This document shows positions 36,821 to 62,270 of a stretch of 64,000 nt of DNA, piece by piece. This DNA comes from Kutzneria buriramensis (GTDB taxonomy: Bacteria; Actinomycetota; Actinomycetes; Mycobacteriales; Pseudonocardiaceae), in assembly GCF_003387475.1 (NCBI RefSeq), contig NZ_QUNO01000002.1, forward strand, positions 62,001-126,000, written 5' to 3'. The first letter of the stretch is position 1; each line of letters opens with the position of its first letter. A program made the position numbers and the translations under genes. The notes beneath the pieces are model-generated. The model saw nothing but the letters and a program-made list of their open reading frames with translations, was not told where the DNA came from and ran no database searches.

Positions 36821-36825
36821 CTTGT

Positions 36826-36878
36826 GCAGGGAAGGACGCCTTACCCTCGTTGACCGCGGGTAAGGCGTCCTTCCCTGC
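36826..36878. terminator. Bidirectional 21-bp stem terminator
   Basis: Perfect 21-bp arms (36826-36846 and 36858-36878; core GGAAGGACGCCTTACCC) with an 11-base loop lie between the convergent LysR and SagB genes, so both can terminate here. I recall similar GGAAGGAC-type stems between genes in other Pseudonocardiaceae. Confidence 0.8.
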
Positions 36879-36884
36879 ATGAGC

Positions 36885-37913
36885 TCAGGTGCCGATCACC
36901 GCGCAGCCGATGGCCAGCTCCGTCGCCGGGTCGCAGCCGATCAGCTCCTCCACCAGCTCGTCCCGGATCGCGGCGGTGAACGTGGTCCGCAGCCCCAGCG
37001 CGGTGGCCAGCAGCGACAGGTTCTGGTTCATGTGGCCGGCGTCGAGTTGCAGCACCCTATAGGTCCGCGGCGAGTCGTGCTTCCACATGTTCCGCCCGAA
37101 CACGCTGGTGTAGAACACGACCAGCCCCGCGCCGGTGACCCACTGCTGGTCGCCGCAGGCCGCGACCAGCTCGGCGTCGCCGACGAGCCCCCCGAGCAGG
37201 GCGAGCTCGTGCGTGCGGCTGTCGTAGTGGTAGATCCCGGGCGGCAGGCCCGCCACGTCCCGCACGACCGGGTACAGCTCGGTGGGATGCCGGCCGCCGC
37301 CCGACGGCGCGGTCTTGAACACTGTGCCGCTGCGCTCCTCCACCCGGACCGTGCCGGCGCTGACCTGGAGCAGCGCGCCGAGCGAGGTCAGTGGCACCGG
37401 GCCGGCGCCGAAGGCCCGGTGGCTGCGGCGCAGGTAGAGCACGTCCAGCAGATCCCGGTGCTGCCACTGGGCTTCCTCCGCCGTCGGCAGCGCGACCCGT
37501 TTGGTGTCACGGAATGTGCTGGCCGGTTCCGGCGGCTCGTGCAGCGCCAGCCGGTCGGCGAAGTCGCGGGCCTGCTCGTCCGAGCTGAGGAAGCGCGTGA
37601 CGCGGGTGGTCCGCGTCGAGTAGTGGTACGCCCGCGCGACCGGCCCCCACCGGCCCCACGCGTGCAGCACCGCCTGCTCCTGGGCGTCGCGCTGCGAGCC
37701 CTCGGCGATCAGGACGTCGTTGGCCAGCAACACGTCCACCCGGTGCCGCAGCCGCTCCGGCACCGAGTCGCGGTCCCGCCAGCGGATGAACCAGCGCAGC
37801 ACCTCGTCGCTGTCGGTGCCCAGCACGTACTGCCGCTGGTCCAGGTAGTCGTCCCAGACGACCTGGCCATCGACGGCGAACACCCCGCCGCAGGCGGAGA
37901 TCCGCAACCGCAT
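36885..37913 (-). CDS. SagB-type (nitroreductase-fold) peptide dehydrogenase
   Basis: A 342-residue FMN-dependent dehydrogenase of the SagB/ThcOx family, which in RiPP pathways oxidises residues of a ribosomal peptide. Residues 1-135 form the family-specific N-terminal part. The nitroreductase fold follows from DVLYLRRSHRAFG, with SGGGRHPTELYPVV (flavin-binding) and LDAGHMNQNLSLLATALGL. The ATG overlaps the stop of a 34-codon gene (TGATG), so the two are translationally coupled. No YcaO cyclodehydratase is near, so azole formation is unlikely. Confidence 0.9.
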   Translation of the reverse strand: MRLRISACGGVFAVDGQVVWDDYLDQRQYVLGTDSDEVLRWFIRWRDRDSVPERLRHRVDVLLANDVLIAEGSQRDAQEQAVLHAWGRWGPVARAYHYSTRTTRVTRFLSSDEQARDFADRLALHEPPEPASTFRDTKRVALPTAEEAQWQHRDLLDVLYLRRSHRAFGAGPVPLTSLGALLQVSAGTVRVEERSGTVFKTAPSGGGRHPTELYPVVRDVAGLPPGIYHYDSRTHELALLGGLVGDAELVAACGDQQWVTGAGLVVFYTSVFGRNMWKHDSPRTYRVLQLDAGHMNQNLSLLATALGLRTTFTAAIRDELVEELIGCDPATELAIGCAVIGT

Positions 37914-38017
37914 CAGGCCGCGTCGAACTCGACGGGCGCGCCCCACGGATCGACCGGATCGTCGTAGCATCCGGCCACCGGGCGCAAGACGGCGGCGGTG
38001 TCCACAAACTCGTCCAT
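37913..38017 (-). CDS. 34-residue peptide, candidate RiPP precursor
   Basis: A 34-codon gene whose product starts MDEFVDTAAV and ends with a GAPVEFDAA tail; the centre has AGCYDDPVDPWG with the only Cys (17), Tyr (18) and Trp (25). It is acidic (seven Asp/Glu) with one Arg and no Lys. Support: the stop overlaps the SagB start (TGATG), and a TAACCT -10 lies seven bases before its ATG, which suits a leaderless transcript. Size and coupling to a SagB oxidase suggest a precursor peptide; that function is inference. Confidence 0.7.
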   Translation of the reverse strand: MDEFVDTAAVLRPVAGCYDDPVDPWGAPVEFDAA

Positions 38018-38024
38018 GTTCGTC

Positions 38025-38030
38025 AGGTTA
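38025..38030 (-). promoter_or_regulatory. -10 box, leaderless type (34-codon gene)
   Basis: TAACCT on the minus strand, seven bases before ATG; no Shine-Dalgarno is present. The same hexamer serves the HxlR and decarboxylase genes. Confidence 0.5.
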
Positions 38031-38100
38031 TCGTCGTACAAAGGGATCCGGCCGGGTCCTGCCGTCCGGACCACGATCAACTGCCCGTTCGACCGGAGGC

Positions 38101-39225
38101 TCAGCCGCTGAGGGAGGGGACGGTGCGGGGCGAGGTGGCGTGGGTCTGGTACCAGACCTGGAAGTCGCGGAGGGCGTCCGGGTGCAGCGACCAGGCGCCG
38201 AGGGCGGGGGAGGGGACGGCGGCCAGCAGGCGGGTGCGGTCGAACGCCTTGGCGCCGGTCAGGTACGACCGGAAGAAGTCGATCTTGCGGTCGAACTCCC
38301 GGTCGGCAGGGGCGAAGCCGGCGTCGGAGTAGGTGTAGTGCGGTCGCGGCAGGCCGACGACGTCGAACATGAGGTCCAGGCCGTCGCCGACGCGGATGCC
38401 GGTCGGATGGGTCAGGTGGAACACGCCGACGTGCCCGGACCGGCTCAGCGACACCGCGTCGGCGGCGACGAGGTCGACGGGCGCCAGGTCGACGGGCGTC
38501 GCCCGGTCGGCCCGCAGCCGCAGCGGCCGGGTGCGCAGCGCGGGGTCGCCGAGCATGGACACCATCCGCTCCAACTGCACCAACTGCCGCTGCACGCCGT
38601 ACATGCCGGAGTGCCCGCCGACCACGGCATGCGTGACGCTGTGCCCGATGACGATGCCGGGCCGCAGGATCCGCGTCCGCAACCCCTCGGCGGCCAGCAC
38701 CAGCCACTCGGCGGCGATCTTGCTTTCCTCGTAGCGGTTGTTGTGCAGGGGATCCGTCCCCGCCTGCTCACGGATCGTCCCATTGCGACGGCCGGCGACG
38801 TAGGCGGTGCTGAAGTGGTTGAACGACCGGCAACCCAGCGCGGTCGCCAGGTCGACGGCGTGCCGCGTGCCGAGCACATTGGTGCGCTGCAAACCTTCCC
38901 GGTGCCGCTCCTCGTAGCGCAGATCGGCCGCGCAGTGCCAGAACTCGGCGGCGCCGGTGGGAAAGTCGGCCGGATCGACGCCGCAACGGGGCAGATCGAC
39001 GTCCGCGGCGACCGCGAGGCACCGATTCCGTATGTCGAAGTCGAGCGCGTCGCCGTGGCCGTAGGCCCGCGCGGCGGCGCCGAGCGCGGCCACGAGGCGG
39101 GTCGAGGCGTCGGTCCGGCCCGGCCGGACCAGGCAGGTCACGGGCGCGTCGGAGCGGCGCAGCAGCTCCAGCACGAGCGCGGACCCGACGAGGCCGGTCG
39201 CTCCGGTGACGACGTGCACGAACAT
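38101..39225 (-). CDS. SDR oxidoreductase, thioester reductase-like (NAD_binding_4)
   Basis: A 374-residue extended SDR of the kind found at the end of carboxylic-acid reductases and NRPS terminal reductases, here stand-alone without a carrier domain. The Rossmann motif is TGATGLVGSALVLELL (residues 7-22), the catalytic Ser is in FNHFSTAYVAG, and YEESK provides the Tyr and Lys. It may reduce a thioester or acyl group to an aldehyde or alcohol. It lies 83 bases upstream of the peptide gene on the same strand. Start uncertain: ATG, or GTG two codons later with AGAGG better spaced. Confidence 0.85.
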   Translation of the reverse strand: MFVHVVTGATGLVGSALVLELLRRSDAPVTCLVRPGRTDASTRLVAALGAAARAYGHGDALDFDIRNRCLAVAADVDLPRCGVDPADFPTGAAEFWHCAADLRYEERHREGLQRTNVLGTRHAVDLATALGCRSFNHFSTAYVAGRRNGTIREQAGTDPLHNNRYEESKIAAEWLVLAAEGLRTRILRPGIVIGHSVTHAVVGGHSGMYGVQRQLVQLERMVSMLGDPALRTRPLRLRADRATPVDLAPVDLVAADAVSLSRSGHVGVFHLTHPTGIRVGDGLDLMFDVVGLPRPHYTYSDAGFAPADREFDRKIDFFRSYLTGAKAFDRTRLLAAVPSPALGAWSLHPDALRDFQVWYQTHATSPRTVPSLSG

Positions 39226-61730: not shown

Positions 61731-62270
61731 ATGGGGAGACGGTTCGCCACGGTCGACCATGTCCTGGGGGAACTGCGGCGGCGTGACTTCCTGCATCCGG
61801 ACGTCCGCGTTGTCTGCCAATGGCTCTCGCGTGACCGCGGCCGCCCGCTGCACCTCGTCCCGCTGCCGCTGCGGACCTCGATCAGCGGCGCCTGGCTGGG
61901 CATGCCGGACGCCGACTACATCGTCTACCAGTCGGTCGGATCCAGTCCGCTGCACCAGATCCACGTGATCTGGCACGAGATCGGGCACATGCTGCTGCCC
62001 GGGCACGCCCGCACCTGCGACGTCGACCCAGCCACCCGGGACGTGCTGATGAAGGTGCTCAACGCGCTGGTGCCGAACCTGAGTCCGGCGCTGCTCAAGC
62101 GGATTCTCGGCCGCGGCGGCTTCACCGACGGCCAGGAGGTGGAGGCCGAGGTGTTCGCCGGCGAGGCCGTGCGCGTGCTGGGCGAGCTCGACCGGCCGTC
62201 CGGGCATCGCGACCTGACCGAGGCCGAGGCGCAGATCGTGGACGCGCTGGCCCGAGAACTGCGCGTCTGA
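61731..62270 (+). CDS. ImmA/IrrE-like metallopeptidase-fold protein
   Basis: A 179-residue protein with a zinc-peptidase helix His82-Glu-Ile-Gly-His86 (HVIWHEIGHMLLPGH), in the ImmA/IrrE-like style. ImmA-type proteases cleave repressors in stress responses, but actinomycetes carry many orphan versions paired with a MAB_1171c-type membrane protein, as here. GAGGGGAG lies about ten bases before the ATG. One base separates it from the next gene, so the two are certainly co-transcribed. Confidence 0.85.
   Translation: MGRRFATVDHVLGELRRRDFLHPDVRVVCQWLSRDRGRPLHLVPLPLRTSISGAWLGMPDADYIVYQSVGSSPLHQIHVIWHEIGHMLLPGHARTCDVDPATRDVLMKVLNALVPNLSPALLKRILGRGGFTDGQEVEAEVFAGEAVRVLGELDRPSGHRDLTEAEAQIVDALARELRV

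Follow-up and report, generated by a model that had tools for sequence, protein, structure and literature searches.

A short acidic peptide gene overlapping a SagB-type oxidase gene in Kutzneria buriramensis suggests a little-studied class of enzyme-modified peptides

SagB enzymes are azoline oxidases that act after YcaO. In the excerpts available of the sources, a SagB-like enzyme is described together with YcaO (PMC10783134), a SagB is reported in a non-ribosomal peptide synthetase siderophore cluster (PMC7413640), and the nitroreductase domain of PflD makes Z-dehydrophenylalanine in a peptide, at a Phe-Asp site (PMC12636437). The excerpted 2025 preprint on PflD describes nitroreductases that have no YcaO association, or are fused to a multinuclear non-haem iron-dependent oxidative enzyme (MNIO), as rare in clusters for ribosomally synthesised and post-translationally modified peptides (RiPPs) and as functionally uncharacterised, and it suggests that other nitroreductases could form further dehydroamino acids (PMC12636437). 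Our literature search, which covered few subscription journals and some sources in excerpt, found no pairing of a peptide with a SagB in the absence of YcaO or ATP-grasp, save the PflD fusion. Here we describe a 34-codon gene and the SagB-type flavin dehydrogenase gene that overlaps it in Kutzneria buriramensis (Pseudonocardiaceae). Both lie within a stretch of 64,000 nucleotides (positions 62,001 to 126,000 of contig NZ_QUNO01000002.1), called the window below, of a 12-Mb genome in 65 contigs. Judging from sequence comparison, we suggest with a probability of about 0.6 that the locus represents, or did until recently, a minimal RiPP-type pair of a short acidic precursor and a SagB-type flavin mononucleotide (FMN) oxidase with no adjacent YcaO.

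The peptide gene (37913-38017, minus strand) encodes the precursor-like 34-residue MDEFVDTAAVLRPVAGCYDDPVDPWGAPVEFDAA, which has one each of Cys17, Tyr18 and Trp25. Its TGA and the ATG of the SagB gene (36885-37913, minus strand; 342 amino acids) share bases as TGATG. These features had been proposed in a sequence-only reading of the window and are borne out, as is the SagB-type identity of the enzyme, which matches TIGR03605 (antibiot_sagB) at 122.7 bits against a cut-off of 78.4 and also passes the cut-off of PF00881. The flavin PSGG loop is present as FKTAPSGGGRHPTE (residues 199-212), and this segment lines up with its counterpart in CyaGox and further relatives of solved structure. The kinship of the enzyme predicts an FMN oxidase. 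The -10-like hexamer TAACCT noted in the same reading is also there, 7 nt upstream of the peptide ATG (38025-38030, minus strand). It belongs to a block, CGACGATAACCTGACG, that is identical across the five SagB-bearing genomes of the genus, while the bases further upstream are variable, and its spacing suggests a leaderless-type arrangement.

To place the pair among its relatives, sampled genomes were searched for homologues of SagB, which occur at E ≤1e-25 in 73 of 297 genomes of the family, at 1e-30 in 11 of 394 of the class and at 1e-50 in 30 of 250 of the family of genome G427; the weaker ones are distant paralogues. The Kibdelosporangium, Amycolatopsis and Saccharothrix loci are from the same family as the window. 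Peptides were identified visually clade by clade, with a pattern used for the ATP-grasp loci, and the ATG chosen was the one that aligns within a type. They were counted over 45 of the 54 named loci (L072-L117, less the distant partial match L115); among the distant loci L118-L125, inspection was confined to L121 and L122. The sequence-only reading had staked its idea on conservation of the short open reading frame (ORF) beside homologous SagB genes, and such conservation is found: a gene for a short peptide, acidic in most cases, lies upstream in 42 of the 45 loci. Twenty-five are directly upstream of SagB (types A, B, C and D, and Nonomuraea), three, from Microbispora, are upstream of a gene for a tetratricopeptide repeat (TPR) protein, and 14 of the 17 Saccharothrix-type loci have the peptide before an ATP-grasp gene. 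Examples are MIEDVDLAIAFEPYSQEYDKPIDEIFGFVTRSEG (A), MNTSAIDTVVTELSEEYQAAEVLNAWAERPADDD (C) and MHDEDDDEFLYELEAEYKAQSTWGGFEPPPHGGPPFRSRR (D). With the ATG shared within each type taken as the start, the peptides of types A, B and C have the same length as the window peptide, 34 residues. A short precursor gene conserved beside a modifying enzyme, a mark of RiPP loci, is therefore found here. Upstream of distant SagB genes at L140, L141 and L142 we also observed short basic peptides (e.g., MRKLTLKPTVVVRADRGAAVPFFYREK), which are possibly another SagB-peptide family.

No other single result speaks as strongly for the window peptide as its ungapped match to the A-type peptides of Kibdelosporangium and Umezawaea. 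Over 34 residues the four A-type peptides score 31, 21, 33 and 17, with shuffle means near -26.5, and these scores were reached by 3, 50, 5 and 120 of 100,000 shuffles, respectively. The best-scoring one shares 11 of 34 residues with the window peptide, including Tyr18, Asp19, Pro21 and Asp23. This comparison covered nine peptides, all of types A, B, C and Microbispora. An NCBIfam scan of precursor peptides, including the four A-type and one Microbispora peptide, gave no meaningful match. The summed ratio of non-synonymous to synonymous polymorphism (pN/pS) is 0.34 for A-type, 0.26 for D-type, 0.51 for Nonomuraea and 0.65 for C-type peptides. On a SagB tree of 57 rows, with 14 near-duplicate rows and many distant loci left out, the ten peptide-type labels need nine changes, which is the minimum. 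Each peptide family thus stays with its own SagB clade, a pattern that co-inheritance would also produce. In the same tree L074 falls among Kibdelosporangium/Umezawaea; its record bears the title Rhodococcus rhodnii NRRL B-16535, a name that is probably wrong.

The precursors of the Microbispora type carry repeated cores. One (34 amino acids), two or three tandem units of the form VFExHEDxYxxPxxAL..NHNE lie upstream of the TPR and SagB genes (L072:4613-4939, L080:3845-4102, L078:4542-4730, L145 and L146). Among 11 distinct units aligned, VFE, Asp, Tyr and NHNE are present in all 11 and Pro in 10. Tandem cores are a hallmark of RiPPs. Three more loci of the same family (f19) read DDYAMPESC, DEYSAPQTC and DEYDAPQSC. 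Across the sample a Tyr in acidic surroundings is common to every type, two of the six C-type peptides excepted, and YxxP is recurrent rather than universal, types B, D, Nonomuraea and Saccharothrix being without it. It is this Tyr that recurs, and the suggestion that oxidation occurs near the acidic C-terminus finds no support.

The genus of the window organism offers a natural loss experiment. A close SagB is present in five of its seven genomes; of the other two, G006 has distant relatives only (best E 5e-18) and G005 has none. In four congeners the TGATG junction is kept, together with the peptide start and the opening residues (MDEFVDT or variants of it), but 19 peptide codons (more in one species) are lacking, with 15 or about 11 residues left. 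The SagB proteins of the same four lack a 21-residue segment (TAPSGGGRH / PSGGGRHP in the window) and four residues before the WKH site; WK is also lost in three of the four, and the fourth (G004) reads WRH. Because the four form a single clade beside the window SagB (support 96/89), one shared loss event would be the simplest history. The joint loss of core and flavin loop ties the peptide to SagB, as would be expected if the core is the SagB substrate. Because of the part missing in the congeners, we propose a leader of about residues 1-15 and a core of about residues 16-34 (GCYDDPVDPWGAPVEFDAA); the core-less remnants and the repeated Microbispora cores are both compatible with such a division. 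At the congener loci (L018-L021, from G003, G001, G002 and G004, respectively) the loop-less SagB is still an open frame, accompanied by the core-less peptide of 11-15 residues and an ATP-binding cassette (ABC) pair, and it is possibly a pseudoenzyme with a new role. Among these four only, the ratio of non-synonymous to synonymous substitution rates (dN/dS) is 0.28-0.58 for the remnant SagB, 0.08-0.21 for the adjacent short-chain dehydrogenase/reductase (SDR) and 0.25-0.35 for the neighbour c9.

From these comparisons, we consider it very likely that across the family the peptide truly serves SagB as a substrate. We suggest that the N-terminal domain of SagB would hold the first ~15 peptide residues. 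This part of about 90 residues is possibly similar to a RiPP recognition element (RRE): a profile of it (30 loci, one dropped for stop codons, with the 23 rows longer than 50 residues kept) aligned to the PqqD profile in hhalign over 66 co-linear columns, with a score of 21.1 and an E of 0.0023, and beat 150 of 150 shuffled decoys. A Pfam scan of ten SagB N-terminal parts gave no PqqD/RRE match, and a PDB search with the N-terminal part gave no convincing one. The nitroreductase domain would then remove two electrons from the core, with Calpha-Cbeta of Tyr18 in CYDDP as the most probable site, to give a dehydrotyrosine with a change of -2 Da. Tyr18 is favoured because PflD makes its Z-dehydrophenylalanine at Phe-Asp and the window core has Tyr-Asp; oxidation at Tyr is nevertheless a tentative proposal. 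The overlapping genes would couple the translation of substrate and enzyme. Export would formerly have been by the ABC pair kept in the congeners, and perhaps by a major facilitator superfamily (MFS) protein in several other genera.

Several observations weigh against a RiPP-type pair, and more are taken up with the alternatives below. Small upstream ORFs are frequent by chance, so the 34-codon ORF alone is little proof and comparison is needed to judge it: among 53 coding-like ORFs of the window, 19 are accompanied by an ATG ORF, 25-50 codons in length, that stops close to one of their first six starts, with a stop/start overlap in three and an acidic upstream ORF (net -4 or lower) in two, counts that include the window peptide. 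Compared with the five B, C and Microbispora peptides, the window peptide shows no excess over shuffles, so that what links the peptide families is chiefly their position and the kinship of their SagB enzymes. For single A-type pairs that include L023, dN/dS is 0.36-0.90. In the SagB tree the ATP-grasp group has a support of 54/16, and the tree program flags the branches that join the Nonomuraea and window groups as long. His or Asn replaces the Tyr in the two deviating C-type peptides. The RRE likeness has an hhalign probability of 12.5%, and the nitroreductase part, serving as the negative control, reached a score of 18.3 across 15 columns.

The alternative that survives best is a decaying locus, in which the ancestral pathway worked, is being lost across the genus and yields no product in the window organism now. 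We give this a serious, if less than even, chance. Residue 279 of the window SagB is His (WKH, residues 277-279) and is Tyr in 31 of 31 other aligned enzymes, which have [KR]-Y after an invariant Trp. We take the Lys-Tyr at this site to be a motif of azoline dehydrogenases, and because His279 replaces the Tyr of the other 31, the activity of the window enzyme is uncertain. Furthermore, the ABC pair is absent from the window locus. In the four congeners two genes with ABC_tran domains lie between the SDR and peptide genes, and none is there in the window, where the final codons of an ABC transporter gene persist as a relic (GRTGS-stop; 38077-38094, minus strand) that starts within 10 nt of the SDR stop; its 17-mer is the end of the second ABC gene in the four congeners. 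Since the congeners keep the pair and the window keeps the relic, the missing transporter reflects loss of the ABC pair in the window lineage. The loss of core and flavin loop in the congeners also speaks for decay, as does a SagB dN/dS of 0.28-0.58 over ten genus pairs versus 0.08-0.32 for the adjacent SDR. However, the window peptide and SagB frames are intact, dN/dS is below 1 and the neighbour c9 is nearly as loose (0.25-0.45). Another export route is also possible, as a related ABC pair lies on another contig of the window genome (57% identity for one member), at a locus with a LanB-like gene, YcaO and a second SagB-like match. Decay of the window copy may be far advanced, and we put the chance that the pair is still active in this organism slightly short of even.

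A different explanation is that the short ORF is a translated leader that sets SagB translation by coupling and is no substrate. The congeners would allow this, since they keep the start region and the TGATG junction though the core is gone. We consider it improbable, given the residue-level similarity of the window peptide to A-type peptides and the tandem cores of the Microbispora-type loci. In addition, the peptide genes of types A, B, C, D and Nonomuraea do not overlap SagB but stop 34-66 nt upstream of its aligned first residue, which would be unexpected of a leader alone.

Alternatively, azole chemistry could operate in trans, with a YcaO from another locus making a thiazoline at Cys17 that SagB then oxidises. 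The search for YcaO used a profile built from L170, L171, L082 and L091, which recovers L098 and L149, neither used in building (L149 repeats L098). It was applied, trimmed, to 88 sources, namely the window, the SagB loci and two other loci of the window genome, ten of the sources being short stretches with flanks of about 1.5 kb. An earlier tblastn search had found L082 and L091 weakly and missed L098. The profile, which a very divergent YcaO could escape, detects no YcaO in the whole 64-kb window, and its matches among the 88 sources are confined to three named Nonomuraea loci and to L170 and L171, the two other loci of the window genome, each of which also has a SagB-like match. These two loci, the single Cys of the window peptide and the Nonomuraea relatives all speak for the azole route. 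All three named Nonomuraea loci (L082, L091 and L098) have YcaO beside the pair, and at two of these loci it scores 156 and 147.8 bits with PF02624. Their pairs may be ordinary azole clusters, or possibly an evolutionary link between YcaO-dependent and YcaO-free SagB pairs. Against the azole route, no YcaO was found in the other SagB loci searched and the aligned A-type peptides are without Cys. The window peptide has one Cys, one Thr and no Ser, unlike the Cys/Ser/Thr-rich cores of linear azol(in)e-containing peptides and thiazole/oxazole-modified microcins (LAP/TOMM), which also have a YcaO. We judge azole formation in trans to be as improbable as the coupling leader, and YcaO-independent action to be likely. 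The claim that no YcaO or transporter is adjacent thus holds for the window proteins; the absence of a transporter is a loss in this lineage, and the Nonomuraea relatives do have YcaO. As a separate observation, L170 (G000:C14:125000-144999) holds an 82-residue Ser/Cys/Gly-rich precursor-like ORF, followed by a LanB-like gene, two frames with YcaO matches, a SagB-like match and an ABC pair, and is a predicted azole-type RiPP locus.

The weakest alternative, another oxidation such as a crosslink related to Cys17-Tyr18 or an oxidative C-terminal change whose product the SDR reduces, is suggested by the adjacency of Cys17 and Tyr18 and by the SDR near the pair in all five SagB-bearing genomes of the genus, and is very unlikely given that A-type peptides are without Cys, that no SDR match at E 1e-12 is found in 46 named SagB loci and that the SDR shares its presence and absence with a FAD monooxygenase. 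The SDR (38101-39225, minus strand; 374 amino acids, intact in the five genomes, with YEESK) has only a putative link to the peptide. As to its proposed thioester-reductase type, the NAD_binding_4 family PF07993 is above its cut-off, and the TIGR01746 thioester reductase model, at 95.6 bits, is below its cut-off of 213.35. Of the solved chains, MxaA 4u7w comes closest in sequence (E 9.5e-16). When 25 neighbourhoods were clustered, the SDR cluster c8 was confined to the five genomes. Beside SagB, the SDR was seen in this genus only, and we rejected it as a component of the class outside the genus. It may belong to a syntenic block with the FAD monooxygenase, because the two have the same pattern in the genus (5 of 7 genomes).

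A 21-bp terminator had been thought to close the unit. The hairpin 3' of SagB (36825-36879, no strand assigned) in fact has 25-nt arms that are 96% complementary, and its half-site GGAAGGACGCCTTACC occurs 65 times forward and 64 times in reverse in the genome, versus 0/0 for a reversed control. It is therefore one copy of a dispersed genomic element, and we rejected it as specific evidence for a terminator of the unit. Among the copies listed, many half-sites are in pairs 29 bases apart. Further away, the Pfam scan of the region found a zinc-peptidase-like gene of PF04228 (31906-33432, plus strand). Within the 16 region proteins scanned, 14 of them neighbours, there is no transporter, YcaO or ATP-grasp, the last being an enzyme that a graspetide locus would have.

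Other neighbours recur around the relatives. Streptomyces antibiotic regulatory protein (SARP)-type regulators with TPR accompany types A to D, with L092 as an exception, and a TPR protein stands between precursor and SagB in Microbispora. MFS transporters are near the A and C types, Nonomuraea L091 and two YxxPxxC-type loci. A DUF885 peptidase, at most a possible candidate for the missing protease, is near SagB in types A and B and in 16 of the 17 Saccharothrix-type loci, but DUF885 has 3-5 matches in each of the seven genomes of the genus. ATP-grasp and NDH2 recur in the Saccharothrix type, and ATP-grasp matches occur only in these relatives, with none in A, B, C, D or Microbispora loci. At L094-L117, of the Saccharothrix type, we observed the peptide, an NDH2-like FAD protein, ATP-grasp, SagB and DUF885 together; these loci are possibly graspetide branch 6 as outlined in the excerpt of PMC8939145. 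Because TPR proteins recur beside SagB, both with SARP in A to D and as a free protein in Microbispora, the product could perhaps be a peptide signal sensed by a TPR protein. This belongs to a broader and rather unlikely idea, namely a new actinomycete RiPP class in which a stand-alone leader-binding SagB would alpha,beta-dehydrogenate Tyr in the short acidic cores of precursors with one to three such units, independently of YcaO.

The idea of an unusual peptide-oxidase class is partly supported and extended. A conserved peptide partner with no adjacent YcaO is found in the window and most relatives; the SDR and the terminator are not supported as parts of it. The pairs of related bacteria suggest a little-studied class of enzyme-modified peptides. 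The gathered loci provide several compact substrate-enzyme pairs, with repeated cores and natural loss variants, with which the action of a stand-alone SagB on a peptide can be put to a direct test. Should dehydrogenation fall on Tyr or another aromatic residue, ribosomal peptides would gain a simple route to dehydroamino acids that needs one enzyme.

The pair shares features with several known systems. With LAP/TOMM systems (McbC, SagB, CyaGox) it has in common a SagB/ThcOx-type FMN dehydrogenase, whose profile matches CyaGox 5lq4 and McbC 6gos, and the Nonomuraea loci have YcaO as well. In contrast, no YcaO is near the non-Nonomuraea types and the window core is poor in Cys, Ser and Thr. The top NCBIfam model for the window SagB is TIGR04511, a putative peptide maturation dehydrogenase, with 162.6 bits, yet below its cut-off of 240. 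Graspetide branch 6 with SagB, as far as the excerpt of its source describes it, also has a predicted precursor beside a SagB-like enzyme, and the Saccharothrix-type loci likewise combine ATP-grasp and SagB, whereas the A, B, C, D and Microbispora loci and the scanned window genes have no ATP-grasp match (PMC8939145). Finally, PflD of the pfl RiPP cluster is, in the excerpted account, a nitroreductase-family flavin domain that acts on a ribosomal peptide independently of YcaO, with a change of -2 Da on an aromatic residue before Asp; this is Phe-Asp in PflD and Tyr-Asp in the window core, where the reaction is a proposal (PMC12636437). PflD differs in being an MNIO fusion from Pseudomonas with a partner HEXXH enzyme, whereas the window enzyme is a stand-alone SagB with its own N-terminal domain.

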